A stretch of DNA of 23,934 nucleotides, taken from IMG/VR virus record IMGVR_UViG_3300021142_000180, positions 1 to 23,934 of that record; one strand, given 5' to 3'. This stretch comes from a virus. The position numbers and the translations under genes are program-made. Positions 1 through 23,934 of the stretch are shown one piece after another. The stretch's first letter is position 1. Each line of letters begins with the position of its first letter. The notes beneath the pieces were generated by a model. It was not told the origin of the DNA and did no database searches. It saw only the letters and a list, made by a program, of their open reading frames with translations.

Positions 1-3000
1 GTTGCTAGTTCGTTAGGTATTGATGCTGATCCTATTACATTAGTTGACCTAACCTTACAAAAAATTAATGCTAATAGACCAAATACTGCACCTTATTACT
101 TTAGCGACATGGTTCCATACGGTGCTGCGGTTACTACTGATCTTACAGTAGTTGATCACAGGATCAAAATCTATCCACTGAGTTCAGTGTTTAGTCTAGA
201 CAGCTTGTCTAATAAAGCAGTACTTGTATATCAAAAATCAAACGGTGTTAAAAAACAATTAATATATGGACGTGATTATACGTTTAGTGATCAAGCAACA
301 ATTGTAATTGATCCTTCAGTCGCACTGTTAACCGGCGATACTATTACTACTGTTGAATACGATAGTACTGACGGATGCTTTGTTCCAGAGACTCCTACAA
401 AATTAGGTATTTGGCCAGCATATGTTCCTCAAATATATCTAGATTCTACACTATTATATTCTCCACAATATATGATTCAAGGACATGACGGTAGCGTTAT
501 ATTAACTTACGGCGACTACCGCGATGCAATGTTATTAGAATTAGAAACAAGAATTTATAATAATATTAAAGTCAAATATGATCCTAGTATCTTTGATATA
601 TTTTCAGTGATTCCTGGATATAATAGAAAGACAGATTATAGTCTAGAAGAATTTAATCAAGTACTAGCACCTACATTTTATAAATGGACTGGGTTAGTCG
701 GTGTTGATTTTACTCAGCCGTTAACTTACGATGCATCAAACACATTTACTTACAACTATTCTTTAGATGTAATGCCTAACGGCAATCCAGCCCCGGGATA
801 TTGGAGAGGTATCTATCGCTATATGCTTGATACAGATCGTCCGCATTTATGTCCTTGGGAAATGTTAGGATTTACAGTTGAACCAAGTTGGTGGACAAGT
901 GTCTATGGTCCAACACCGTACACTAGCGATAATCTAGTTATGTGGGAAGACTTATCTACCGGTACTATTCGCAAACCCGGAGTACCGCCAGAGGTAGTAT
1001 TACAGTATGCAAGACCATTTTTAATAAATCATATTCCAGTTGACGAAGCTGGCAATTTAATAAGTCCGCTCGAATCAGGATTAGCTGCCGGAACATTTTC
1101 TCCCAATGCAGATAATAATTTTGTATTTGGCGACATAAGTCCAGTTGAATCAGCGTGGCGTCGAAGTAGCTATTATCCATTTAGTGTGTTAATAGCAAGT
1201 ATGTTATTAACTCCTGCAAAAACATTTGGAGTACTATTAGACAGATCTCGCATTGTCCGTAACGTTGCCGGCCAACTAGTTTATAAAGATACCGGATTGC
1301 GTATTCGTCCAGCTGATGTAGTTGTTCCAAGTATATATTCAAGCACAACTAGAATACAAACTGCGGGTATTGTTAACTATGTAGTTGATCTTATTTTAAA
1401 TGTTATATTCAGTAATAATTTAGAATCTTATAATAATTATAATACTGATTTAAAATCTTTAACACCACAACTGAGTTATCGCGTTGGAGCATTTACTAAT
1501 CAGCCACAGTTTAATTTATTATTAGAAAGCAAAACGCCACTAGCAACAGGTAGTGTTTTTATTCCTACAGAAAGCTATAATATTTTCTTGAACACATCGA
1601 GCCCTGTTAAAAAGCTAACCTATAGCGGCGTAATTATTACTAAGAGTGCATCTGGTTTTGAAGTTAAGGGCTACAGCAAATCTCAACCTTATTTTAACTA
1701 TTACAGTTATTTGGAATCTGGTATTAGTATTAATGTCGGGGGTATCTCGGAGGAATTTGTTGTGTGGACTCCCGGACAGCAATATATTATTGGACAAGTG
1801 ATCCAATACGGTAATGCTTATTATAGATCAACAGCAAATACAACCGCCGGTTCAAGTTTTGATACAACTAGCTTTGTAACATTAAATCAATTGCCAATTG
1901 TCGGTGGTGTAACAGCACAATTTAGAAAGTCTTGGGATCGTAACACAGTAAATTCTGCTCCTTACGGCACAACATTTACCACAGTTCAAGAAGTTGTAGA
2001 TTTTATGTTAGGATATGAACAGTGGTTGATTGATCAAGGTTTTGTTTTTAACAACTTCAATAATAATTTAGCCGCAGTAACCAATTGGTCAACTAGTGCT
2101 AAGGAATTTATGTTCTGGACCACACAAAATTGGTCATCGGGACAGGATAAGTGGAGCGAATGGCTACCAAATCAAGAATATTCCTACGGTACTATTGTTA
2201 AATTTAATGGCAGTTATTATAGTGCAATTTATAATATTCCATCTTCGGATGTGTTTGAAATCACACAATGGGAATTGCTTTCTGGTTTAAGTAATATCGG
2301 CAGTTCTGTAATAAGCCTAAGCCCAGCCGCCGGCGGTGTAACATTTACTAATAATTTAACTGTTGTCGATAGTATTGGAAATTCTTTCAATGATTATGAA
2401 ATATTTAAAGTTGACGGAACGCCTATACCACTTAACCAGCTATCATCATATCGCAATGGAAATACTGTCACATACACTTCTGAAAATTCTGAAGGACTAT
2501 ACTGTGCAAGTTTTTATCTAATACAAAATGAACATGTGGCATTAATTGATAATATTGATATTTTTAACGATGTTATATATAATCCCCCAACGGGTTATCG
2601 CCGTGACCGCATTAAATTATCCGGCTATGTTACCACCGGATGGTATGGCGGATTAGATATTCCCGGGTTTATATTTGATTCTGCAACCGTAGAAGCATGG
2701 CAGCCTTGGCAAGATTACAACATGGCTGACATTGTTCTATATCAAGGCTACTATTATAGTGCTAAAGCATTTACAGCAGGCACCTCTACATTTATCGCAT
2801 CTGATTGGATTCAACTATCATCAAAACCTACAGCTCAAATTTTGCCTAACTGGACTAACTCTGCTACACAATTTACAGATTTCTATAGTTTAGAAGTTGA
2901 TAGTTTTAATACCGATCAACAAACAATGGCACACCATTTAATTGGCTATCAAAAACGTCAATATTTAGATAACATTATTCAAGACTCGGTTAGCGAATTT

Positions 3001-6000
3001 AAATTTTATCAGGGAATGATTCGTGAAAAAGGAACACAAAATGTTCTTAATCAACTGTTTGGAGTCCTTAGTTCAGATGCAGCCGAGAGCCTAACATTCT
3101 ACGAAGAGTGGGCACTACGTGTCGGACAATATGGTGCTGCAAATGCTTTTGAAGATATTGAAATTGTATTAGATGCAAGCGTAGTTAAAAATAATCCCCA
3201 AGGATATTTACTATCACCAAGAATTGATTCTTCAGTAAGTCCGTTTATTATTCAACAAACTCCTAATGATATCTATGTAAAATCTCTTGGATATAACTCT
3301 AATCCGTTCCCTGCATTAGTAAATTCAACTCCGTTATTGCGCAGTGCTGGCTATGTTGATCCAGCCGATGTGGTATTTTCTTTAGGATATATTTCAGATA
3401 TTACTAAACAAGACATTACGAAATTATCTAATGGACAATATGTTTGGTGTGCATTTGACGGCCCAAGCTGGAATATCTATCGATTTACTGATTTATTAAT
3501 TCGTGCTACTAATGTAACATATGACGGTACAACACTGACTATTACTACACAGAATATTGTTCCTATCGTCGCTGGATCTTATGTTGGCTTAGCACAGTCT
3601 GGAAGTTTTGATGGATTCTATCAAGTAGCAACAGTAACATTAAATTCGTTTACTATTACTGCGTCTAACCTAACAGTAGCACAACCGTTTACCTCATACA
3701 ATGAACTAATAATTTACTCATTGATCACACAGCGTACAGCGTCCTTAGATATCTTAGACACTTTAAAACTAACTCACCTGACTCCCGGTTCATTAATTTG
3801 GGTCGATGATAATGGTAGCGGACAGTGGGCAAATTACAAATACTCCCCAGTTTACAAGCAAAAGTCACTATCTAATCCTACGCCTTCCGCAGGATTTACG
3901 TTCGGCTCAACTATTGCTGTGAACAGTCAAAATTCAGTAATGACTGTAGGAAACTCACAAGGTTCATTATATGTTTATGATAAAGTAGGAAAATCAGTAG
4001 CCTGGGAACGCCGAGGTGCTATTCCTATTCCTTTCTTATCAACAAATTACTTTTTAACCAGCCAACCTAATTTATATGCAACAGTAGTTGCAATCAGTGC
4101 AGACGGCACATGGTTAGTTTCTGGTAGCCCACTTGCCGGATATATTAAAACCAACTATCAGGGAATATGGTCTACCGGTGTAGATTATGTTCTTAATAAT
4201 GTAGTTCTTTATAATAATGTATATTATCAAGCACTACAGGCTTCTTATAATCAAACACCAACAACAGTATCACTTTATTGGAAAATAATTCCTTATATTG
4301 CAGTCGATAAGATTAGTGGTGATGAATCCAATGCACATGTTGGCCAAGGTGTAATTAGTATATACAAAAAAGATATTAATAATGACTATTCGTTAGTTGA
4401 TTCTATTGTTAGTCCAGTTCCTACTGCCAATGAAAATTTTGGATCACAGATGGTATTTGGCAATAACGTGTTATATGTTAGTGCTTTGGGTTATTCAAAC
4501 AATAAAGGTAAAGTATATAAATTATCATACAAAACAACGATAGAGCAAACTACAACCTACAATCCAGTCGGCAGCTCTGCTGGTACCTTAGTGGTCACAT
4601 CTACTAGCGGTATTAGAGCAGGCATGATCGTTCAGGGAGCCGGATTTACTTCTGGACAAATTGTTGAAGGTGTACTGACAAAAATAACTTTTGCTAGTAG
4701 TGCAAATATTGGACGTGTTGCTAGCGGAATGACTGTTAGTGGAACAAATATATTGCCTGGAACTTTAGTTGTAAGTAAAGGTTCTGATAATTTAGGTAAC
4801 AACTATATTATCGTAAGAAGTTCACAAGATATGAATACTAATATATCTTCAGTTGAATTTAATGGTAACCCGCTACTAACATTTATCGCAACTAATGTTG
4901 CGAGTATGAATACATTGTTGCTCAGTGGTAGTCCGGATAGTACACCTGCAGGAGCATTAACATTTGTATCTAATAGCTGGACATACGACTTTAGCGAAAC
5001 ATATGTAGGTGCAGCCACAGGAAGTAATTTTGGAAGTTCCTTAGTTCTAAGCCAAGATGGAAATACTTTTGCAATTGCATCATCTAGCAATACACTACCC
5101 GGTGTAGTTAATATATACAAAAATTCCGGAGCAGGGTTGACTGCTTATCAGACACTAACCGGAACTACTACTGGATTTGGTCGAAGTATTTCGATATCAA
5201 AGTACAGCGACTTCCTTGCAATATCAGATGATCATACTAGTGTAGGTACCATTAATCAACAAGGAAGTGTAGTAGTTTACAGCAATAGTTCTACCGGCTA
5301 TACTGTTTCGCAGTCATTAGTCAATCACTATCCCGAGTCGAGTGGATTATTTGGCAATAAAATTGCGTTTATGAATAACGACAACACTATTGCAGTCTAT
5401 AGCAAATACGGTGATGTTTCAATATCAACTTCGTTTGATTCGTACACAGAATTACTTTATTATTCTAATAATGCTCCGCAAACTTTAGTTAATGAATTAA
5501 TTATTGGGACTGAATATAAAATTACCTCTTTAGGAAATTTATCACAAGATCAGTGGAATATAATTGCAACGTCTACCCCAATTACTGCTGCAAGTATAGG
5601 AACTTCTTATAAAATCCTATCTTTAGGTAATACTGATTGGAATTCTGTCGGAGCAACATATTGTACATTTACAGCAACTTCAATTCTATGGTCGCCCACT
5701 GACACTGTTTCAAATTTAATTAATGTTAATTCCTTAATATCCGGACAACTAATAGTGGGCCAGGTAATATCAGGAATTGGAATTCCACTTGGAACAACTA
5801 TTATAAATGTAAATAATTCTAACATTTATCTATCTTCTTCAATCTCTGCCATCCCGACTAATTCTCCAATTACAATTACAGCTTCGTTATTGTATGCAGT
5901 TGGATCAGAGATTCGAGTATCAACATTTGGTACAGGAACTGGAGTAGTAGTAGCTCCTAATTACACATACGCTGTCGGTTCATATTTTGTAGCAAAAACT

Positions 6001-9000
6001 ACAGGAACCGGTACAGGAACTGCGGAATTAGCAAATTATGTATTCCAAAATAATTTAAATTCTACCGTAATAAGTCCAACAACATTTGATAAATCTTCTA
6101 CAAATTTCATTACTTTAGAATCCGATAATGGAAAAGTTGATATCTACGATCGATATAATTCTAAATGGGTATTCAGCGAAAGTCTTACATCAACTAATCA
6201 ACAAGGCGATGCCTACGGAACAGGTTTTGCAGTTGCTGATAATCAGATATTCGTCAGTGCAATAAATGCGCTCGATCAAAATTTAAAATCTGGTCAAGTC
6301 TATAGTTATGAAAAATTATCCGGAACATACAGTTGGGAATCTAGTCGAACTGAGGTACTAGCAGCTGATGTTTCTAAAGTTAAAAAAACATTCTTATATA
6401 ATCGTGCATTAGGTAAACTAGTAACATATTTAGATGTTATTGACCCTTTACAAGGAAAAATAGCAGGACCTGCACAAGAGGAAATACAATATCAAACATT
6501 CTACGATCCTGCAAGTTATTCTTATAGTGATGGAACAGTTTCAGCCACAGTTAATACAAAATCATTCTGGACCACCCAAACAGTCGGTCAACTATGGTGG
6601 AATTTAACAACTACTAAATTTGTTGAAAATCATTTTGATGATCCAAGTTATCGAAACAATACATGGAATACTCTTGCTCCTGGCGCCAGTGTTGATATCT
6701 ATGAATGGGTTTCCTACAATCAATTACCAGCAGTCTGGGACTCTAAAGCAGATACTCCCGCAGGGATAGCAGCCGGAATAAGCGGTACTAGTTTATACGG
6801 AAATTCAGCATACTGTCTAACGCAAACATACGACAATATTAGTAAAACATTTTCTAATACCTATTATTTCTGGGTTAAAAATAAAAAAATTATTCCTGCA
6901 AATGTTACTGGAAGAAACATGTCGGCTAATGATGTTGCTAGCCTTATCGCTAGCCCGAGAGGGCAAGGATATACTTGTCTGGCATTAACTAGTACTAATT
7001 CATTTAGTTTAATTAATGCTGCACAATATCTAAAAGATACAGATGTAGTGCTAGCGATTGAATATTGGTTAACAGATAACACAGATCAAAATATTCACAG
7101 TCAATGGAAGTTAATTAGCAACGATTCGATCGTTAATCTACCAGCATCAATCGAACAAAAATGGTTTGATAGTTTATGCGGAATCGATCAAGGTGGTCGT
7201 CAAGTTCCAGATATGACATTGCCTATAAAGTTACGCTACGGTATTGAAAATCGCCCACGCCAGAGTATGTTTGTAAATCGAATCGAGGCATTAAAAGAAT
7301 TTATCGAAAGTGTTAATTTAACATTAATCTCTTATCAAATTACCGAATCAAGAAACATTTCAGCACTAGAATCCTATGATCCAGTGCCAACTACTATTTC
7401 TGGTTTATATGACAAAACTATTGATACTGATGCAGAATTAGTATATGTAAATGCAGTACCATTCAGCCCACCTACCCTAACTCCAATTATAGTAGATGGT
7501 AAAATTACTGGTATTAATATTGTTAATCCAGGCAATGGATATGTTATTGCTCCGTACATTACTATTGCAGGTACAGGAGAAGGTGCAGTAGTTAAATCAA
7601 CAATAAATGCATTAGGAAAAATTAGTGGAGCAACTATTATTAACGGAGGCGAAGGCTACGATAGTAATACAAAATGTTCAGTTAGAAGTTATTCAGTATT
7701 AGTTCTTAGTGATAGTACATCTCAAAATTCTTGGAGTATATATTCATACGATCTAACAACAAAGCTATGGTCTAAGACACTAACTCAATCATACGATGTT
7801 CGAAATTATTGGAAATATGTTGATTGGTTTGCCACAGGATACAATCAATTTTCATCAGCAGACTATGCTGTTAGTACATTCGTTGACTTAAATTCAATTT
7901 CTCCTGCTATTGGTGAAATGGTAAAAGTTTTAAATGTAAACGCCGGCGGCTGGTTGCTATTAGAAAAATATGCCAATTCAACTTCAGTAGATTGGACACA
8001 AAGTTATAAGGTTGTTGGTATTCAAAATGGTACTATACAATTTAATACATCATTATATGAGTTTACAGGCACCAATGTTGGCTATGATGCTAGTATATTT
8101 GACGGTGTAGATTTTGATATCCAAGCAACTCGCGAGTTAAGAATAATCTTGAATACAATTAAAAATAATATTTTAATTGACGATCTTAAAACAAACTATT
8201 TAAATTTATTCTTTAGTAGTGTTCGTTATGCTCACAGAGAACAACCTTTCATTGATTGGATATTTAAAACAAGTTTTGTTCGTGCAACGCATAATGTTGG
8301 TGCATTGAGTCAGCCAGTAAATTATCCGTCTGACAATTTAAATAATTTCCAAGATTATGTTGCAGAAGTTAAGCCATATAGAACTAAGTTACGTGAATAT
8401 ATCAGTGACTATACCGGTTTAGATATCGGCCAAGCTGCTGTAACAGACTTTGATTTACAATCAAATTACGAAAATAGATCTATTACTGCGATTGGTGCAC
8501 AATTTAAAAATAATGCTATTCAGAGTTTTGATCAGGCATTAAACAGTTATCCTTGGAAATTCTGGAGTGATAATTTAGGATTTGTTGTAACTGAAATTAT
8601 AATTACAAACGGCGGCAGTGGATATGCAAATATTCCACAAGTTGTTATTAGTCAGCCAACTGGTCCTAACCCTAAGATTGCAGTGGCAAATGCATATATT
8701 GCAAATGGAAAAGTCAACAGAGTTCTTATTATTTCCAGCGGCAGTGGATATCTAAGTGCGCCCACTGTAACATTCAACGGCGGATTATCCGTAGGCGGTG
8801 TTGCTGCTAAAGCAGTGGCAATTATAGGGGATAGTGTTGTTCGATCAAATCTTACTGCATTGAAGTTTGACCGAGTTGATCAAACATATTATATTCTAAA
8901 TTTAGAACAAACCGACACATTTACTGGATCAGGTTCTCGACTACAATTCCCATTAACTTGGGCCCCAGATGTAAAAGTTGGTTCAGCAGTTGTAACAGTT

Positions 9001-12000
9001 AACGGAGAAATAATTTTAAGAGAATTATATAAATTAGCTGTGGTTAGTTCAACATCTGCAGGTTACACACAGTATTCTGGAACAATTATTTTTAATTCTG
9101 CTCCCGCAAATAACAGCACAATTGTGGTAAAATACAAAAAAGATATTAGCATTTTAAATGCAACTGATCGTATACAGCACTATTATAATCCAACTACTGG
9201 TCAATTAGGTAAAGATTTGTCACAATTGATGACTGGTATCGATTATGGTGGAACTGTTGTCAGCGGATTAGGATTTAATGTCAGCGGAGGTTGGGGTGTA
9301 ACTCCTTACTATTCTGAATCATGGGATAATAGAGATCCGTCATTTAATGATTATATTGTGCAAGTAACTGCAAATACTCATTCCTTTACATTACCTTATA
9401 TACCGACTACAGGCACAGAAATTAATATCTATCATACAAAAACTAATACAGTTTCTTATATATCGGACGGATCTACCCTTGGATATGCATTTGATATAAA
9501 TCTTATTTCTCCAACTGTAAACATAACATCAACGTCAACAGCAGTTGATGTTAGCAGCACATATAATTCTGTAGGCAGTGTTGGTTATATTCTTAAAGTT
9601 GCCAGTACTGCAGGTATAGTACCCGGTATGGTTATTACTGGTACAGGTTTTAATTCTAGACAAAAAGTTGTCCGTGTTGTCGATTCAACAACTTTAAATA
9701 TTAGTCCAGTTCCTGATAGTACACCAAGTGGTACATTAACATTTAGTAATACTGCTGGCGGATTTATCCTTACCGTCGCAAGTGTTACTGGATTAAAGAT
9801 TGGGGACATTGTTACCAGTACTGGATCAGCATTTAGCTACAATACAACTATAACTGCAATAGATTCTACAAATAATTGTGTTACACTAAATCAAATTATT
9901 TTAAATCATATCGATAACGGAACAACAATAACATTTGCTCGGCAGCTAGTACAACCAACTGATGTGATTATATATGCTAACGGTACTATTTTATTAACAG
10001 CATCTGCACCAATCGGTGCTCTTATTAATATCACTGGATCATATCGTCCTGTAAGATTAGATGATCCGCATTACGGCACAGTTAATCAAATCAACGCATC
10101 AGCAATTGTAACAACACCGATTGCTGATGGAGTGTCGAGTACATTTACGATTCCAGGTTCATACACAGTAAATGATGGCGACGAGTTCATCCTACGTCAG
10201 AGCACTAGCGAAGGTTCTATTACTCCTTCTAGCATTGACTATGACACTGCTATCGATGGCGGAAATCTAGCTTATAGTACTGCTAGCGGACTAGCAGCCG
10301 ATGATATTGTTCTCGACGGTGACGGCTTGATAACTCCATCAAGTAGTCCTGCTCCTGAGGAAGTGATTCCTGGACAGATAGTAGATACTCTAGCTATTAA
10401 AGTATATGATCAAGCACAATCTGGTTCAGCAGATATTAAAGTTGATAATCATGTTACTGATGGGCTGACCAGCGCATTTGCTATCGGCCAACTACCGAAT
10501 AGTTCAAGAGCGGTTATAGTTAAACTTGGTACGTCTATTAAAACTTATACAACAGATTATACTATAGATTATGCAAATAAATTGGTTGTATTTAATAATA
10601 TTCCTTCCGCAGGTCAGACTGTTAGTATTTTTAGTATAGGATTTAATGGAAATAATATCTTAGACATTGATTATTTTGTCGGTGATGGTGAAACTACTGA
10701 ATTTGTAACTAAAGCTACTTGGGTATCATCTCTAACTAGTTTAGTATACGTTAACGGAGTTGTAGCATCTCCAACATTGTTTAAAACTGATAATAGTTAT
10801 ACATTTGCTAACGCAGTTGGTCTTAAATTTTCAACAGCACCTGCTGCTGGTGCATTGATTAATTTCATCATCGTCAGCGGTAGTCAGCAAACATTTGCTA
10901 TTACAAAAACTGAAACTGTACCAACAAATGGTTCTACAACATATACTCTACAATATCCAATTGGAAAAACATTACCAAACGAATCAAATATGATTGTGCG
11001 TGTTGATCAGAGTATTTTACAAGCACCAACTAACAGTTATTTTACCATAGGCAAAAATAGATTAACATATACTGTAGATTCTACCAAAGCAGTGCCATAT
11101 TCAGCACCTACTAATAATATTTTAGTATATGCTGGTGGAAATCTATTAACACTTGGGGTTGATTATACTGTAGATCCGAGTGCAATCTCAGTTAAAATTA
11201 ATAAGATCGTTTATTCAACCTACAGTGGAAAACAATTAATTGTTAGTATAATTTCTAATGATGGATATAGCTACAATGCAACCACTGGACAAATTACATT
11301 TGCACAAGCATACGATAATGCACATACTGTTGAAGTTATTAGCTCTTATCTACAAGATATATTAGATATTCAAAGAACTAATATCGAATATGTTTCGTCG
11401 TTTACCTTGACTCCCGGCACAACAGAATTTTATACATATAATGCTGTCGGTGGAGGAATAATACAACTAGACAGACCTGTAATTGATAATAATTATGTCT
11501 GGGTAGTTCAAGGAACAACATTATTAACACCGAGCATTGATTATAAATTAAACGATGATTTACAAAGTATTGTTTTAGCAAATCCGCCTCATTCGGGAGA
11601 TGTTATTTCAGTTATTACATTTGGTAGCAATATTCTTCCAAATGCTGGTATTTCATATATGCAATTTAAAGATATGTTAAACCGTGTATCTTATAAACGA
11701 TTAAATGCCAATAAGAGAACTACGTTAGTTAATGATTTAAAATGGAACGATACAACTATTGTTGTCGCTGATGCAAGCACATTAGATGTTCCTAATCCGA
11801 GTAGCAATCGTCCGGGCATTATTGAAATACGTGGAGAGCGTATTGAATACTTTACCCTTAATGGAAACGTATTAGGACAGTTACGTAGAGGAACACTAGG
11901 AACTGGTGTATATAATTTAAATAGAGCAGGAACATATGTTCAAGGTATCGGAGCAAGCGAAACAATTCCATATACTGATACTACTACAACCGAAACTATT

Positions 12001-12507
12001 ATATCAAGTGGCGGAACATCAGTTAATCTTGGATTCATTCCAGAAAATGCTAATAGTATAGAAGTATTTGTTGGTGGATATAATGATGCAGCTGAATGGA
12101 TGTCAGGTACTGAATACAGTGCAGGTACTGTTGTTCGTGTTGGACCTTATACATATCGCTGTATTTCTGATAACACAAGTTCAACATCGTTTGCCGCCGA
12201 TAGTAGCCATTGGACATTCTTTGTTGGTAACATACGTTTGAAAAAAGAACCATACAGTGTGTTTAACATAAACAAAGCACCATATAGCCCAGCTGGTGAT
12301 GTGAGTTTCCCTGCAGATTTTATTGTCGACGGAACAACTCCTACTATAACATTAACCAATCCGTTAAGTTTTGGAACACAAGTTACTGTAGTTAAACAAA
12401 CTGGTACAGTATGGGATAGTACTACTAATATACTAAACGATAATACAGTAATCGGTAATTTTATCAAAGCAGAACCTAGTATATGGTATACTGAGTATAA
12501 GAATTAA
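1..12507 (+). CDS. Giant modular virion structural protein (5' end outside window)
   Basis: This is the 3' part of a gene for a very large phage surface protein; 4168 codons are visible. The frame is open from base 1. The first ATG (109) has no Shine-Dalgarno sequence and reads in frame with the codons before it, so the true start lies upstream. Modules in order: conserved N-part with YGDYRD, DTDRPH and CPWEMLGF (to about 960); three CBM5/12-like modules (1765-2829); FYQGMIREKGT segment (about 3000); split propeller (3892-6354) with a fourth CBM-like module and nested insertions; helical FFSSVRYAHREQPFIDW segment (8206-8260); GSGY repeats; SQLMTGIDYGG (about 9220); beta repeats with an acidic DGDG loop (10315); GERIEYF and QLRRGTLGT (11830-11905); fifth CBM-like module (12097). 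I recall similar segments in giant structural proteins of marine T4-like phages. A role in the virion surface or host attachment is inferred. It could instead be a baseplate-attached fibre. Confidence 0.85.
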   Translation, partial: VASSLGIDADPITLVDLTLQKINANRPNTAPYYFSDMVPYGAAVTTDLTVVDHRIKIYPLSSVFSLDSLSNKAVLVYQKSNGVKKQLIYGRDYTFSDQATIVIDPSVALLTGDTITTVEYDSTDGCFVPETPTKLGIWPAYVPQIYLDSTLLYSPQYMIQGHDGSVILTYGDYRDAMLLELETRIYNNIKVKYDPSIFDIFSVIPGYNRKTDYSLEEFNQVLAPTFYKWTGLVGVDFTQPLTYDASNTFTYNYSLDVMPNGNPAPGYWRGIYRYMLDTDRPHLCPWEMLGFTVEPSWWTSVYGPTPYTSDNLVMWEDLSTGTIRKPGVPPEVVLQYARPFLINHIPVDEAGNLISPLESGLAAGTFSPNADNNFVFGDISPVESAWRRSSYYPFSVLIASMLLTPAKTFGVLLDRSRIVRNVAGQLVYKDTGLRIRPADVVVPSIYSSTTRIQTAGIVNYVVDLILNVIFSNNLESYNNYNTDLKSLTPQLSYRVGAFTNQPQFNLLLESKTPLATGSVFIPTESYNIFLNTSSPVKKLTYSGVIITKSASGFEVKGYSKSQPYFNYYSYLESGISINVGGISEEFVVWTPGQQYIIGQVIQYGNAYYRSTANTTAGSSFDTTSFVTLNQLPIVGGVTAQFRKSWDRNTVNSAPYGTTFTTVQEVVDFMLGYEQWLIDQGFVFNNFNNNLAAVTNWSTSAKEFMFWTTQNWSSGQDKWSEWLPNQEYSYGTIVKFNGSYYSAIYNIPSSDVFEITQWELLSGLSNIGSSVISLSPAAGGVTFTNNLTVVDSIGNSFNDYEIFKVDGTPIPLNQLSSYRNGNTVTYTSENSEGLYCASFYLIQNEHVALIDNIDIFNDVIYNPPTGYRRDRIKLSGYVTTGWYGGLDIPGFIFDSATVEAWQPWQDYNMADIVLYQGYYYSAKAFTAGTSTFIASDWIQLSSKPTAQILPNWTNSATQFTDFYSLEVDSFNTDQQTMAHHLIGYQKRQYLDNIIQDSVSEFKFYQGMIREKGTQNVLNQLFGVLSSDAAESLTFYEEWALRVGQYGAANAFEDIEIVLDASVVKNNPQGYLLSPRIDSSVSPFIIQQTPNDIYVKSLGYNSNPFPALVNSTPLLRSAGYVDPADVVFSLGYISDITKQDITKLSNGQYVWCAFDGPSWNIYRFTDLLIRATNVTYDGTTLTITTQNIVPIVAGSYVGLAQSGSFDGFYQVATVTLNSFTITASNLTVAQPFTSYNELIIYSLITQRTASLDILDTLKLTHLTPGSLIWVDDNGSGQWANYKYSPVYKQKSLSNPTPSAGFTFGSTIAVNSQNSVMTVGNSQGSLYVYDKVGKSVAWERRGAIPIPFLSTNYFLTSQPNLYATVVAISADGTWLVSGSPLAGYIKTNYQGIWSTGVDYVLNNVVLYNNVYYQALQASYNQTPTTVSLYWKIIPYIAVDKISGDESNAHVGQGVISIYKKDINNDYSLVDSIVSPVPTANENFGSQMVFGNNVLYVSALGYSNNKGKVYKLSYKTTIEQTTTYNPVGSSAGTLVVTSTSGIRAGMIVQGAGFTSGQIVEGVLTKITFASSANIGRVASGMTVSGTNILPGTLVVSKGSDNLGNNYIIVRSSQDMNTNISSVEFNGNPLLTFIATNVASMNTLLLSGSPDSTPAGALTFVSNSWTYDFSETYVGAATGSNFGSSLVLSQDGNTFAIASSSNTLPGVVNIYKNSGAGLTAYQTLTGTTTGFGRSISISKYSDFLAISDDHTSVGTINQQGSVVVYSNSSTGYTVSQSLVNHYPESSGLFGNKIAFMNNDNTIAVYSKYGDVSISTSFDSYTELLYYSNNAPQTLVNELIIGTEYKITSLGNLSQDQWNIIATSTPITAASIGTSYKILSLGNTDWNSVGATYCTFTATSILWSPTDTVSNLINVNSLISGQLIVGQVISGIGIPLGTTIINVNNSNIYLSSSISAIPTNSPITITASLLYAVGSEIRVSTFGTGTGVVVAPNYTYAVGSYFVAKTTGTGTGTAELANYVFQNNLNSTVISPTTFDKSSTNFITLESDNGKVDIYDRYNSKWVFSESLTSTNQQGDAYGTGFAVADNQIFVSAINALDQNLKSGQVYSYEKLSGTYSWESSRTEVLAADVSKVKKTFLYNRALGKLVTYLDVIDPLQGKIAGPAQEEIQYQTFYDPASYSYSDGTVSATVNTKSFWTTQTVGQLWWNLTTTKFVENHFDDPSYRNNTWNTLAPGASVDIYEWVSYNQLPAVWDSKADTPAGIAAGISGTSLYGNSAYCLTQTYDNISKTFSNTYYFWVKNKKIIPANVTGRNMSANDVASLIASPRGQGYTCLALTSTNSFSLINAAQYLKDTDVVLAIEYWLTDNTDQNIHSQWKLISNDSIVNLPASIEQKWFDSLCGIDQGGRQVPDMTLPIKLRYGIENRPRQSMFVNRIEALKEFIESVNLTLISYQITESRNISALESYDPVPTTISGLYDKTIDTDAELVYVNAVPFSPPTLTPIIVDGKITGINIVNPGNGYVIAPYITIAGTGEGAVVKSTINALGKISGATIINGGEGYDSNTKCSVRSYSVLVLSDSTSQNSWSIYSYDLTTKLWSKTLTQSYDVRNYWKYVDWFATGYNQFSSADYAVSTFVDLNSISPAIGEMVKVLNVNAGGWLLLEKYANSTSVDWTQSYKVVGIQNGTIQFNTSLYEFTGTNVGYDASIFDGVDFDIQATRELRIILNTIKNNILIDDLKTNYLNLFFSSVRYAHREQPFIDWIFKTSFVRATHNVGALSQPVNYPSDNLNNFQDYVAEVKPYRTKLREYISDYTGLDIGQAAVTDFDLQSNYENRSITAIGAQFKNNAIQSFDQALNSYPWKFWSDNLGFVVTEIIITNGGSGYANIPQVVISQPTGPNPKIAVANAYIANGKVNRVLIISSGSGYLSAPTVTFNGGLSVGGVAAKAVAIIGDSVVRSNLTALKFDRVDQTYYILNLEQTDTFTGSGSRLQFPLTWAPDVKVGSAVVTVNGEIILRELYKLAVVSSTSAGYTQYSGTIIFNSAPANNSTIVVKYKKDISILNATDRIQHYYNPTTGQLGKDLSQLMTGIDYGGTVVSGLGFNVSGGWGVTPYYSESWDNRDPSFNDYIVQVTANTHSFTLPYIPTTGTEINIYHTKTNTVSYISDGSTLGYAFDINLISPTVNITSTSTAVDVSSTYNSVGSVGYILKVASTAGIVPGMVITGTGFNSRQKVVRVVDSTTLNISPVPDSTPSGTLTFSNTAGGFILTVASVTGLKIGDIVTSTGSAFSYNTTITAIDSTNNCVTLNQIILNHIDNGTTITFARQLVQPTDVIIYANGTILLTASAPIGALINITGSYRPVRLDDPHYGTVNQINASAIVTTPIADGVSSTFTIPGSYTVNDGDEFILRQSTSEGSITPSSIDYDTAIDGGNLAYSTASGLAADDIVLDGDGLITPSSSPAPEEVIPGQIVDTLAIKVYDQAQSGSADIKVDNHVTDGLTSAFAIGQLPNSSRAVIVKLGTSIKTYTTDYTIDYANKLVVFNNIPSAGQTVSIFSIGFNGNNILDIDYFVGDGETTEFVTKATWVSSLTSLVYVNGVVASPTLFKTDNSYTFANAVGLKFSTAPAAGALINFIIVSGSQQTFAITKTETVPTNGSTTYTLQYPIGKTLPNESNMIVRVDQSILQAPTNSYFTIGKNRLTYTVDSTKAVPYSAPTNNILVYAGGNLLTLGVDYTVDPSAISVKINKIVYSTYSGKQLIVSIISNDGYSYNATTGQITFAQAYDNAHTVEVISSYLQDILDIQRTNIEYVSSFTLTPGTTEFYTYNAVGGGIIQLDRPVIDNNYVWVVQGTTLLTPSIDYKLNDDLQSIVLANPPHSGDVISVITFGSNILPNAGISYMQFKDMLNRVSYKRLNANKRTTLVNDLKWNDTTIVVADASTLDVPNPSSNRPGIIEIRGERIEYFTLNGNVLGQLRRGTLGTGVYNLNRAGTYVQGIGASETIPYTDTTTTETIISSGGTSVNLGFIPENANSIEVFVGGYNDAAEWMSGTEYSAGTVVRVGPYTYRCISDNTSSTSFAADSSHWTFFVGNIRLKKEPYSVFNINKAPYSPAGDVSFPADFIVDGTTPTITLTNPLSFGTQVTVVKQTGTVWDSTTNILNDNTVIGNFIKAEPSIWYTEYKN
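1765..2829 (+). repeat. Three CBM5/12-like modules in the giant protein
   Basis: Three segments of about 40 residues begin with Trp codons at 1765, 2161 and 2698. Each follows the pattern W..(G/N/W)..Y..G/A..V.Y/F.G.YY.......(S/T)F....W/F: WTPGQQY, WLPNQEY and WQPWQDY, each followed by a YGNAYY, FNGSYY or YQGYYY strand. This is the pattern of the small chitin-binding (CBM5/12, ChiC/ChiA1-type) fold, whose exposed aromatic residues bind polysaccharide. Binding to a host or matrix glycan is inferred. The spacing, about 396 then 537 bases, shows they are separate insertions and not one tandem array. Confidence 0.65.
4168..4293 (+). repeat. Fourth CBM5/12-like module, inside the propeller region
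   Basis: The segment starts WSTGVDY and continues with NNVVLYNNVYYQAL and a closing YWKIIP, the same pattern as the three upstream modules. It sits between the second and third recognisable propeller-like strand sets of the giant protein, so it looks inserted into a blade or inter-blade loop. Confidence 0.6.
5497..6042 (+). repeat. Nested module cassette (module inside module inside module)
   Basis: Two front halves of one module type occur in series (IGTEYKITSLGN at about 5500 and IGTSYKILSLGNTDWNSVGA at about 5599). A different module follows (VGQVISGIGIPLGTTI at about 5755). Then come two matching back halves in series (YAVGSEIRVSTFGTGTG at about 5893 and YAVGSYFVAKTTGTGTG at about 5971). 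The order front A, front B, C, back B, back A is what two successive insertions would leave. The reading frame is kept throughout. Confidence 0.6.
7468..7690 (+). repeat. GSGY-type repeat pair, first copy
   Basis: The segment carries G.I.GI.I.NPGNGY..AP.I.I.G.GEGA followed by GKISGATIINGGEGY. These are two units of a repeat in which a Gly-rich G(S/N/E)GY turn precedes 'P.V.I' and an alanine-rich strand. The same type recurs at 8595-8826. A beta-solenoid or beta-sandwich structure is likely; the function is unknown. Confidence 0.55.
8595..8826 (+). repeat. GSGY-type repeat pair, second copy
   Basis: The units read ITNGGSGYANIPQVVIS and ISSGSGYLSAPTVTFNGG, joined by an A-A-G-K-V linker strand and closed by GGVAAKAVAI. 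They are better preserved than the copy at 7468. Units of this type recur in phage fibre proteins that I recall, usually next to beta repeats, as here. Confidence 0.55.
12097..12231 (+). repeat. Fifth CBM5/12-like module near the C-terminus
   Basis: The segment begins WMSGTEYSAGTVVRVG, continues TYRCISDN and ends with HWTFFVGN. It follows the conserved GERIEYF/QLRRGTLGT segment and is separated by about 7.8 kb from the other copies. It is the copy closest to the usual CBM5/12 pattern, with SAGTVV where the family normally has a small-residue turn. Confidence 0.65.
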
Positions 12508-13211: not shown

Positions 13212-15392
13212 ATGACTTATACAGTTTCGTTTACAGATTCTACTAATCCTGCTAAACCACCGATTGTTATTGCCGACGGTGCCCTTAATAATCAAACAAG
13301 TTTAACCTTTGTTGGAAAAAATTATTCAGGTTATGCGCCAATTTGGGCTGGAGATTTTTTACATCTATTAGAAAATTTTGCCAACTCATCAGCACCATCT
13401 AATCCAGTCCAGGGGCAGTTGTGGTATGACACCTCTAGTGGTAATAATATTCTTAGAGTATATGACGGCACTACTTGGGTAGAAGCTGGAAACTTAAAGA
13501 AAGCTCCGTTTGTTGATGCGCCGAGCCCGTCATCGAGTGTAGCTGGTGACTTGTGGGTTGATACTACTAATAGTCAATTATATCTATTTACTGGTTCAAA
13601 CTGGACACTAGTTGGGCCTACTTATAGTGCCGGATTACAAACAGGACCAGTAGTTGAATCAATTGTCGATACAAACAACGTTACTCGAGCAGTAATTTCA
13701 ATGTATGTATCTAGCGCAACTAATAATTCCTCTTATCGTGTTGCAATTATTAGCAAAGATTCATTTACACCAAAATCAAGTCTTGACGGTTTTGCATCAA
13801 TCAACGAAGGTATTAATTTATATTCAAATACAATAACCCAAGATACTGCAACTGTTTGGGGGACTGTTCAAGCAGCAAATTCATTAAATGTTAATAGTGT
13901 AGCGGTATCTGCTGCAAACTTTTTAAGATCAGATGTAACCAGTACAACAAACAATCCTCTCAATATTAGAAATGCAGGCGGTATAAGTCTAGGAACTGAT
14001 TTAAGTTTTAATATTGCACAAGGACTCAACACATTTACTTTTTATTCTAAAAATAGCGGAAATAGTGTTGAGTTTAATGTAAATGGCAGTACATTAGTAC
14101 ATCTTGACTCTAATGGAAATGTTGGTATAGGTGCTGGAAATATTAGTCCATCAACACCGTTAAGCGTTGCTGGTGTTATTTCATCAGGTGTTGCCGGCAC
14201 TCCAGGCGGCATTATAGTAAACAACGGAGCAAGTCCAACTCCGAGTAATATTCTTTCTGTATCAACTAGTGGAATTTCAACAACTTTAAATTCTACATTT
14301 ACTAGTAATGTAACAGTAAATGGTTTAATAACAACAGGTCTAACAGGAACAAATCCAAGTGGTCCAGTAATATTGCCAGCATCGTCAGGCATTTATGATA
14401 TTGGTTCACAGTCACTAACATTTAGAAATGTCTATGCTAATTCTTTCGTTGGTAATTTCAGCGGAAGTTTTATCGGAACAGTTATCGGTAATGTAACAGG
14501 AACAGCAGACAGTCTTAAAACGCCGACAGTGTTCACAGTTGCAGGTGATATGATTAGTTCAGATACAGGTGTAAGTTTCACCGGCCAAAGTATAACCGGC
14601 ACTGCTATTCTTAATACACAAGTTAGTAGTACAATGATCACCGGCAAACCAGCAGCAACTGCCGCACAGTCTACCGATCAAATACTTGTATTTCAAACAA
14701 ATACTTCTGGCTCTGCACTAAAGAGCATGACCAGAGAAGTATTCCTTAACGGAGTCGGAGCATATGCAATCCCAATTGGCTCAATTATGCCATTTGCTGG
14801 TCAAGCAACTGCTATACCGACTGGGTGGTTAATGTGTGATGGTAGTGAATTAAGTACAACAACATATAATCAATTATTCCTAGTGATTGGATACATCTAT
14901 GGTGCCCAGAACACTCTATTAGGAGCAAACACATTTAAACTACCTGACTTAAGAGGAAGATTTGCCCTTGGCTTGGACAATATGAACAACTATGGAAATG
15001 TTCAAGGATTTGTTCAGGCACAAACTGGTGGAACTCCACCAGTTAACGTTAACACCGGTGGACAGATCGGACCGGCAGGACGTGTTAGCAATATTGCTGC
15101 CGATACACTTGGCGGATATGCAGGAAGTCAAAATGTCGTATTGGATGCAACACAGCTTCCGCAACATACACATAGTCTTAATGATGGAACTGCTCAATAT
15201 TATGCTCCGGGTGTTAACGGTGGTATAACAGATAATGCTGCAAGTTACGGCCACGGATTGCCTGCTACTACTAGTACAGGTTATGGTTTAGAAAATACTG
15301 CCGGTGTTAATTCTGCAAGTATTGGTCAAGCAATAACTGTGATGAACCCATATTTAAGTATTAACTACATCATCTTTACTGGTAACGTATAA
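13212..15392 (+). CDS. Tail fibre protein with tail-collar domain and HTH metal-site motif
   Basis: This 726-aa protein is probably a receptor-binding fibre. Residues 1-95 form the domain shared with the next two genes ([20 protein letters not shown], then GQLWYDT). A second '[17 protein letters not shown]' unit follows, then a long Ser/Thr/Asn/Gly-rich shaft (about 150-515). Residues about 520-590 are a phage tail collar domain ([27 protein letters not shown]). The tip contains LPQHTHS with His652 and His654. In collar fibres such as T4 gp12, an HxH motif binds a metal ion on the trimer axis. The end, [12 protein letters not shown], is typical of the family. The start has a good ribosome-binding site (GGGAG, 13199-13203). 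The stop overlaps the next ATG by one base (TAATG), which suggests translational coupling. Confidence 0.88.
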
Positions 15393-16678
15393 TGACATAT
15401 TCGATTCTTTTAACTAATGGAACTACATTAACAAGTGTGGCAAACGGTACGGTTGATCAAACTGCTACTGATTTAACATTGATTGGACAAAATACTAGCG
15501 GGTATGGTTTGTTTATTAACGATAACTTTGTACACCTATTAGAAAATTTTGCAAATACTAGTCAGCCTAATCATCCTATTAAGGGACAGCTATGGTATGA
15601 TACTAGTCAAAATGTTTTACAAATTTATAACGGTACTAGTTTTACCCCTACTGGAAATACAATAGTTGCAAAATCAGCACCGAGTGGATTATCAGCAGGC
15701 GGCCTATGGATCAATAGTGCAACTAGTCAATTGTTTTTTAATGACGGTCTCGAAACTACGCTAGCTGGACCAATATATACAAAATCTCAAGGTCAATCGG
15801 GATTTGTTGTAAGTGATGTTATTGATACGATTGGTGTTAATCATACAATCGTATCTTTATATGTAGCTAATACCCTATTAGGAATATTTGCTAAAGAGGC
15901 ATTTACTCCGGCGTCAACAATTCCTGGATTTACATCGACAGCACAAGTTGTTGGAAGTCAATTGGGAACCACATTAACCGTCACAACAGTCATTTCTGGA
16001 ACACTAAGTGTAGGACAAACTATAGTTGGAACCGGAATTACACCAGGCACAACTATCACCGGACAATTGACAGGTGTACCATCAGGTTCGATCGGCGGCC
16101 CAGGAACCTATTCAGTAAGTACTAGTACCACAGTAGCATCTTCTAGCATAACTGCTATTTCAGGTTCAATTAGTATTGGATTTAATGTAAGTACATACAA
16201 TGGTGTACAATTTAATGTTCCTGTTAGCCAAGCTACAAATTTATTAGCTCCAGATGGCAGCCTCAAAACACCTGATAGTTTTGTATCTACAACTAGTGAT
16301 TCGTCAACAAGCGGAAGTATTTCAATACAAAATGCTACACCATTAGTATTAGGTACAGCTGGTTATTCACAGATTAATGTTTCTTATAGTCTATTCCAGT
16401 TACAGTCAAAACAAGCCAATCAAAATTTTGAAATTAGTGTATTAAGCGACACTAACTACCCAGCACTGCATGTAAATGCAACAACTAATACAGTTGGAAT
16501 ATTTACTGCTGCTCCTCAAGCTACATTAGATATAAATGGAACAGTTAGAGCAACACCATTTACCCCTGCAAGTTCATCAGCTACAGGTGTTGTTGGGCAA
16601 ATTGCATGGGATGCTAACTATGTTTATGTTTGTACTGCTACAAATACCTGGAAACGTGCCGGATTAAGCACATGGTAA
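15392..16678 (+). CDS. Tail fibre protein, short paralogue
   Basis: This 428-aa protein has the same N-terminal domain as its neighbours: [27 protein letters not shown], and a second [14 protein letters not shown] unit. After about residue 185 it carries a G.GI..GT module ([20 protein letters not shown], then [13 protein letters not shown]) of the kind also found in the giant protein. A short beta-rich tip follows, ending in [14 protein letters not shown] and a final small strand set with W..A/YVYVC. There is no collar domain. The start codon overlaps the previous stop by one base and has no strong ribosome-binding site of its own, so expression probably depends on the upstream gene. It is probably a fibre or fibre segment attached through the common N-domain. 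The tip resembles the end strands before a chaperone domain, but none is present. Confidence 0.8.
15944..16166 (+). repeat. G.GI..GT module in the short fibre
   Basis: The segment reads [19 protein letters not shown] and then a Gly/Pro-rich turn and a Thr/Ser strand set. The same module, more diverged, occurs in the giant protein at about 4620, 4729, 5755 and 9625. It is the longest and least degraded copy here, which suggests a recent acquisition. Confidence 0.6.
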
Positions 16679-22750: not shown

Positions 22751-23436
22751 TGTACGATATTGTTTTTATTAGTTATAATGAATTGAATGCAGATGAAAAT
22801 TATGCAAAACTTCTTGCACGATTTCCTAAAGCTAGAAGAGTAGATGGAGTTACAGGAATACATGCTGCACATATTGCCGCAGTTAAACCGAGCCTATCTC
22901 GATTTGTTTGGATAGTTGACGGTGATGCAGACATATTAGACTCGTTTAATTTTGATTTTAATGCTCGTAATCAGACCGATACAGTATTTGTATGGAAGAG
23001 TATAAATCCAATTAATGATTTAGAATATGGCTATGGTGGAGTAAAGTTAATACCAAGATCGTTAACATTGAAGCTAGATACTAGCACAGTTGACATGACT
23101 ACTAGCATTGGTAAATTATGTGTGCCAATGCCGGAAGTTAGTAATATTACTGCATTTAATACAGATCCTTTTAATACTTGGAAAAGTGCCTTTAGGGAAT
23201 GTGTAAAGTTATCCAGTAAAATAATTCCTGGACAGATCGACATAGAAACAGATGATCGATTGAATACTTGGTGTACCTATCAAAATGGTTCAGACTTCGG
23301 TGATTGGGCCATCATTGGTGCTAATGCAGGCAAAAAGTATGGTCAAGAAAATGCCTCTAATAAAGAGGCATTGTTAAAGATAAACGACTTTACTTGGCTA
23401 AAAGATCAATGGTCATTGGGAATATCTCAGCAATAA
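22750..23436 (+). CDS. GT-A-like glycosyltransferase, shortened paralogue
   Basis: This 228-aa protein aligns with the preceding gene: DIVFISYNELNADENYAKLL, FPKARRVDGVTGIHAAHIAA, WIVDGDADIL (Asp57, Asp59, Asp61), YGYGGVKLIP, FNTWKSAFRECVKLS and WAIIGANAGK. It is about 70 residues shorter, mainly through shorter segments in the second half. The motif has an extra Asp, so DGDAD could be read in two ways as a DxD. The ATG overlaps the previous stop by one base (TAATG). The last 47 bases are also the 3' end of thyX on the other strand, and a hairpin lies inside codons near its end. Activity is inferred; it could be a non-catalytic partner of its longer neighbour. Confidence 0.65.
   Translation: MYDIVFISYNELNADENYAKLLARFPKARRVDGVTGIHAAHIAAVKPSLSRFVWIVDGDADILDSFNFDFNARNQTDTVFVWKSINPINDLEYGYGGVKLIPRSLTLKLDTSTVDMTTSIGKLCVPMPEVSNITAFNTDPFNTWKSAFRECVKLSSKIIPGQIDIETDDRLNTWCTYQNGSDFGDWAIIGANAGKKYGQENASNKEALLKINDFTWLKDQWSLGISQQ
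23350..23372 (-). terminator. Intrinsic terminator for thyX, inside the opposing gene
   Basis: The 9-base arms AATGCCTCT and AGAGGCATT are perfectly complementary around a 5-base loop. On the minus strand the hairpin follows the thyX stop codon by 17 bases and is followed by a T-rich run (ATTTTCTT). On the plus strand it lies about 64 bases before the end of the glycosyltransferase gene and is followed only by TTGTTAAAG. It therefore serves thyX better, although weak bidirectional action is possible. Confidence 0.6.
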
Positions 23437-23934
23437 CTTTAGCACAGGCTATTGCTACTTCTTGATGTTCTAGTTGTGTACCGTTAGCACTGCGCAGTTC
23501 AATAAAGTGAATCCAACTACGTAGTGTGCCATTCATATATAAACGACTTTCAATTAAACCTTCTGGTAATACTGCACGTGCTTGTTCTTTGGCTATGCCT
23601 TTAGTGATAGCCCATTCATATGCAAGTTGCGATGCTTCGATAATTCGTTGTTGCACATCTTCCCATTCTCGCTGTAAAGTTTCATCATCCGTTTCGATAC
23701 TATTTTGGCGATTTTTTGTGTCTTGCAATCGTGCTTCTCTTGTGACGAATGCAAGGTCCTTAGTAGGGTCTGCGTATCGCTGAGAAAATTCTTGAAAGCT
23801 AAAAGATTTATGTCGGAGGATCTGACGGGCAATGTCTCTGGTGGTAGTGATCTCACAACAGGCACTGACCATCTCGAGTGGTGACCAGTGCTGGTGTTTG
23901 ATGAGATATTTAATAAGTTTTTCTGATGTGTCTG
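23390..23934 (-). CDS. thyX: FAD-dependent thymidylate synthase ThyX, 5' end outside window
   Basis: ThyX makes dTMP from dUMP with methylene-tetrahydrofolate, NADPH and FAD, and supplies phage DNA synthesis. The visible part is 180 residues and the frame is open at the right edge. The residues before the first internal Met (HQHWSPLEM) are also typical ThyX sequence, so the start lies outside. The ThyX signature is RHKSFSFQEFSQRY (23774-23815), with Lys where the second Arg of the RHR core is usual. Further on are ARAVLPEGL, then RSWIHFIELRSANGTQLEH, which with the signature forms the dUMP and flavin site. Full ThyX proteins have roughly 220-250 residues, so some 40-70 are missing. It is antisense to the fibre/glycosyltransferase block and overlaps its last gene by 47 bases. 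Confidence 0.95.
   Translation of the reverse strand, partial: DTSEKLIKYLIKHQHWSPLEMVSACCEITTTRDIARQILRHKSFSFQEFSQRYADPTKDLAFVTREARLQDTKNRQNSIETDDETLQREWEDVQQRIIEASQLAYEWAITKGIAKEQARAVLPEGLIESRLYMNGTLRSWIHFIELRSANGTQLEHQEVAIACAKVIAEIFPMTIDLLAK

Follow-up and report, generated by a model that had tools for sequence, protein, structure and literature searches.

A giant structural protein of a virus raises the question of how two front halves and two back halves of one small module came to stand in a single reading frame, both fronts before both backs, with an unrelated module between them. The window, that is, the whole stretch of DNA analysed here, is the 23.9-kb IMG/VR virus record IMGVR_UViG_3300021142_000180, and its first 12.5 kb encode this protein (4168 aa), the 5' end of the gene lying outside the record. 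A first-pass annotation had proposed that the order A[B[C]B]A at positions 5497-6042 arose by successive in-frame insertions into loops of earlier modules. Here, we name the split module T, with A as the outer T, B as the inner T, and C as the G.GI..GT module. The nest occupies aa 1833-2010 (nt 5497-6030, frame +1) and reads N-half of A, N-half of B, C, C-half of B, and C-half of A, the cut positions between parts being uncertain by about two residues. The features of the window discussed below are as follows.

1..12507, plus strand: giant virion structural protein hosting the nest (open frame; match to phrog_10938, virion structural protein, E 5e-213)
3886..6342, plus strand: beta-propeller region with FG-GAP/integrin-like blades, the nest lying in a loop (AlphaFold and Foldseek)
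4678..4911, plus strand: second in-frame insertion, in which one C-like module interrupts another, whose halves lie at 4573-4677 and 4912-4965 (orthologue comparison and C-profile matches)
5428..5496, plus strand: propeller loop of variable length, flanking the nest on its upstream side (empty or otherwise filled in orthologues)
5497..5577, plus strand: A, N-half of the outer T, LIIGTEYKITSLGNLSQDQWNIIATST (W-profile match, model 4-35)
5578..5658, plus strand: B, N-half of the inner T, PITAASIGTSYKILSLGNTDWNSVGAT (W-profile match, model 9-29)
5659..5883, plus strand: C, complete G.GI..GT module inside B (match to a C profile built without it)
5884..5952, plus strand: B, C-half, SLLYAVGSEIRVSTFGTGTGVVV (W-profile match, model 29-51)
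5953..6030, plus strand: A, C-half, APNYTYAVGSYFVAKTTGTGTGTAEL (W-profile match, model 33-52)
6031..6108, plus strand: re-entry into the loop of the propeller, ..TTFDKSSTNF (in the alignment, orthologues resume here immediately behind the empty site)

Parts of the nest and their setting in the giant protein

The W-profile, an HMM of intact tryptophan-type T copies that the broken copies of the window could not enter, matched the 4168-aa protein in four places only, first the two fronts and then the two backs. The front matches were located at aa 1830-1864 (21.4 bits) and aa 1866-1886 (24.2 bits), and the back matches at aa 1960-1982 (10.3 bits) and aa 1989-2008 (13.0 bits), while the best score among 500 block-shuffled proteins was 6.6 bits. 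The central module scored 18.4 bits against the C profile built without it (shuffle maximum, 8.6). With all four matches above the shuffles, the halves and the central module are placed as first described. Given that the front halves end at model positions 29-35 and the back halves start at 29-33, A and B were cut in the same loop. The insert amounts to 125 aa within a 53-aa host for A, and to 75 aa within a 50-aa host for B.

AlphaFold modelled the 850 residues around the nest with pLDDT mostly >90 outside the nest. Foldseek matched the propeller to those of integrin alpha and of WD40 proteins (E about 1e-8), and by our own count from the sequence it would have seven blades. The nest exits the propeller between strands at model residues 523-528 and 752-757. 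Within the nest (model residues 533-741), pLDDT falls below 50 because hardly any homologue spans it, and we therefore infer the folding of the interrupted T copies rather than read it from this model.

The C-like site at 4573-4965 was uninterrupted in L009, L018, and L019 and filled in L010-L014. An intact C module is also present in a neighbouring tail-fibre-like ORF (window 15392-16678), which shows that this phage has C in at least two of its genes. Further, CBM5/12-like modules (W..G..Y..G..V.Y.G..Y) are repeated in the giant protein, some of them in propeller loops; CBM_5_12-like copies lie at window 4168-4290 and aa 4032-4062, and the protein has five such Pfam stretches. At the end of the record, a minus-strand ORF (23390-23932) resembles, by eye, flavin-dependent thymidylate synthase (ThyX).

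The T module and its break points

The T consensus was derived from 112 intact copies and contains TAGSFVVGKTYTILTVGTTDFTLIGASSNTVGVTFTATGVGSGTGTATTA, and the C consensus was derived from 25 C copies. At least 553 relatives of intact T were confirmed in viral contigs and only 4 loci were found among 84,980 genomes of bacteria and archaea, so T is essentially a virus domain. Besides its nested occurrences, T is present alone as a complete unit in other loci, and C stands alone as a complete unit in L084, L094, L202, and the window ORF at 15392-16678. T belongs to no Pfam, PHROG, or NCBIfam family, its sole Pfam match being YjbE, below the cut-off; sequence searches of the PDB and a fold search against the PDB gave nothing significant. 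A viral fold library placed T in several uncultured Caudovirales proteins, and T-bearing proteins include matches to head-tail adaptor, tail protein, and virion structural families.

An intact 54-aa T was predicted by AlphaFold from a 58-row alignment as one compact domain using both halves (pLDDT 97.7), with a strand at residues 12-17, a helix at 23-27, and strands at 39-41 and 51-53. All three kinds of break site are coil in this fold. DSSP assigned a further strand at residues 2-3 of the model, which suggests that the ends of T are probably adjacent, and such adjacency would explain its tolerance of insertion. The first-pass annotation had pointed to structure prediction as a way to tell nested modules from four separate domains; the intact module came out as a single domain to which both halves belong, rather than as two domains, and the nest itself stayed at a pLDDT (<50) too low to be read.

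Loop 1, which runs from the helix to the next strand, has a length fixed by class: 7 residues in 43 of the 46 W-type intact copies and 4 residues in all 106 F/Y-type ones (152 intact copies measured). The break points of A and B fall in this loop. It had been anticipated that intact copies with matching break points would reveal nesting, and such copies are indeed common, with the breaks located in the class-fixed loop. When A was rejoined (TST+NYTY), loop 1 became 7 residues long, as expected, and rejoined A and B scored 55 and 58 bits, respectively, versus 20-35 for single halves. HMM scores of rejoined halves did not tell nested from crossed pairing. Long-linker N-halves were found with F-type C-halves in 7/9 cases, versus 11/32 (one-sided Fisher p 0.026). 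In the nest, the front half of A is of the long-linker kind and the outer back half is F-type, so this association favours the pairing of the outer halves with each other, for which sequence thus offers modest evidence.

Nesting, gain, and loss in related phages

Orthologues were fetched with the conserved downstream part of the protein (80) and with L052 as query (another 80), some contigs being shared. The site had a basal length of 65-68 residues, i.e., it was empty, in 53 of 72 distinct site-spanning segments; L009 is an example (..TTGFDNNTTTFDKKSTNF; segment quoted at the site, GDSKITTGFDNNTTTFDKKSTNFVTLEVNSGRVDVYDRY). In L052, the same loop holds one uninterrupted T (TFDLYTSIPASAIVTGMSYKIRKLGNTNWNLVAGTTGLIYTQGQLFTAVNVGTGTGTVIDLEQVPNTPTTFDNDLTRV), and in L015, L046, L060, L079, and L171 it holds unrelated short fillers. 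In a tree of 63 orthologues, the window and L052 fell in different clades, each beside empty-site neighbours, and the supported branches require two or more changes at the site. Since the T-bearing lineages stand apart in the tree, the loop probably received T twice. Judging by these placements, the T of L052 is probably an independent insertion and not necessarily an ancestor-like intermediate, so the true intermediate of the window nest was not found among the orthologues. When the whole 183-aa nest was used as query, full-length matches came from the same phage only; the nest is unchanged in two other contigs of the same metagenome (L088/L089).

An independent T[T[C]T]T was identified in another phage, L082, at another place in the protein, and the junction at which C enters B there is the one seen in the window. 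Its parts, in order, are as follows.

VDNYYIITKLGTSDFRAVGAPTNQVGVKFRA: outer N-half
DISRVPAGSFVVGNQYSIVKIGLTDWVEAGAES: inner N-half
TAVVTGSIADNTL..C..TSTTITGQP: C
EVGITFTAITAGRGNGRV: inner C-half
RWIKGTTGTGTLNLV: outer C-half

The simpler arrangement T[T]T occurs in L180, L189 (twice), L235, L250, L015, L024, and L325, three nesting levels are reached in L244 and L246, and T is split by another module in L066. Altogether, about ten loci besides the window and L082 have a module inside itself, and L326, harder to read from its sequence, is probably a further nested case. Break points cluster in loop 1 (after DFT.IGA) and loop 2 (after F.AT, before GSGTGTA), with a single break between LGT and TDF in L246. 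In the first locus set, every detectable orphan C-half had an unmatched N-half upstream, short T tails being assigned by eye; this speaks against halves acting as independent units, which had been named as evidence against nesting. Furthermore, the proposed order A[B[C]B]A from successive insertions is supported by the empty and single-module sites, L082, and the loop length.

Gain or loss of T appears to be recent in some lineages. L213 and L240 differ by the presence of one whole T between flanks that are about 90% identical (150 nt net, with the adjoining linker replaced too), which indicates that in-frame gain or loss of T takes place over short times. Within this giant protein family, further modules of 63-87 residues are present in frame in one phage and absent from a close relative, in the pairs listed here.

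L032 versus L039/L069
L029 versus L036
L078 versus L080
L042 versus L116

The earlier suggestion that modules jump into structural genes at permissive sites therefore holds as a pattern, through independent gains at one loop and recent in-frame presence/absence, and does not extend to the molecular act of insertion. No convincing terminal repeats or target-site duplications were found at the ends of T. Both ends tend to encode Thr-Ala; their synonymous sites agreed no better than shuffled ones did (p 0.12), and the Ala codon alone gave p 0.024. Over at least 100 bases, DNA identity between T copies from different contexts stayed at or below about 82%, and the donor of a recent copy was accordingly not found. 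Recombination with little or no homology, followed by selection for an open frame and folding, would be the simplest account. A self-splicing intein or enzyme-coding mobile element was considered and rejected, as the inserts are modules of 50-75 aa and Pfam, PHROGs, and NCBIfam gave no such family. Separately, L324 has a 525-bp intergenic insertion (about 3267-3797) that by eye encodes an HNH-type endonuclease and is absent in the close relative L320.

Origin of the nest and comparison with known systems

The nest is very probably the product of successive in-frame domain insertions. A virus-specific T of about 50 residues would have entered a surface loop of the propeller in the giant phage virion protein; a second T would sit in the loop of the first, between the tryptophan helix and the next strand, and C in the same loop of the second copy, this being the presumed order of insertion. 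Each interrupted T should still fold as a single discontinuous domain, because strands come from both halves and the interruption is confined to a loop. The outcome would be decorations stacked in a branched fashion on the exterior of the protein, presumably displayed at the surface, where they probably tune surface or receptor contacts. The modules may have come from illegitimate or short-homology recombination between co-infecting phages. It is rather unlikely that T goes further and is a dedicated mobile in-frame mini-domain, preferring a few loops including its own, inserting recursively into itself, and kept for the added surface; in that case T would be the equivalent, at the level of proteins, of nested transposons.

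Tandem duplication with internal deletions could also leave two T copies and C with pieces lost, and no loop insertion would be needed. Tandem T copies exist, as in L066 (aa 1404-1500), and GTGTG-coding DNA is repetitive, but bringing both fronts before both backs would take several matched events. Moreover, L189, L250, and L244 have whole intact copies enclosed by the two halves of another, and the C-in-B junction is found again in L082, all of which makes this course improbable. The front and back motifs might also be separate half-size repeats in accidental order, a reading helped by the short, glycine-rich back half, to which weak matches come easily. It is largely refuted, and very improbable in our judgement, given that 190 of 212 distinct T matches are full-length (22 partial), that an unmatched front half precedes every orphan back half that could be detected, and that both halves make up one predicted domain.

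Metagenome assembly might instead have joined pieces of different phages. The nest lies within a 1490-bp mismatch-free block (5386-6875) relative to L088/L089, which are about 15% different elsewhere in the gene, and an identical block in otherwise divergent contigs makes a co-assembly error possible; either the block is a tract that recombined recently, nest included, or co-assembly created a join. As an explanation of the nest, an artefact deserves very little credence, since the frame is open throughout, the junctions fall on boundaries of domains and loops, and contigs of other samples (L082, L244, and L246) share this architecture.

Successive insertion, the preferred account, gives these loci a wider use. 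The empty, one-module, and nested loops across related phages form a natural record of domain insertion, and the gain and loss of modules between phages about 90% identical may allow direct study of the mechanism of phage protein mosaicism. Two or three defined loops of T accept inserts that exceed T itself in size, an unusual property compared with published size trends for domain insertions, and T could serve as an insertion-tolerant scaffold.

Integrin alpha provides a familiar parallel, in which a loop of an FG-GAP-type beta-propeller accommodates a complete inserted I domain. The phage protein likewise carries a domain in a propeller loop, but there the inserted part is in turn interrupted two times, and the protein belongs to a phage virion. 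Ig-like domains are dispensable small beta domains found across unrelated phage virion proteins and thought to aid surface adhesion; T resembles them in being small and dispersed over unrelated virion proteins. T as an Ig-like domain was rejected, as it has about 50 aa, no Pfam Ig match, and no significant match in the PDB fold search.

Nested domain insertion in general and phage domain shuffling are already known. Ongoing domain exchange in phage structural and receptor-binding proteins was reported by Smug et al. 2023 (PMC10684548), who described mosaic architectures in a text where the word 'nested' does not occur. An ECOD survey (PMC13114784) documented nested A1-B1-C-B2-A2 insertions generally, including six-level nesting of hybrid motifs in the Si3 of cyanobacterial RNA polymerase, and its text does not mention phages or viruses. 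As far as the literature searched goes, and with priority not certain, the new element is a virus-specific mini-domain, so far uncatalogued, that serves repeatedly as host as well as insert and accepts inserts exceeding its own size. The topology is alike in the ECOD cases and the phage nest, and in both one small family acts recursively as host and insert. The insert was smaller than the host in 77% of the surveyed events (PMC13114784), whereas the phage inserts of 125 and 75 aa are larger than their hosts of 53 and 50 aa. Furthermore, T differs from the ECOD cases in being polymorphic between close relatives and in occurring in many unrelated phage proteins.
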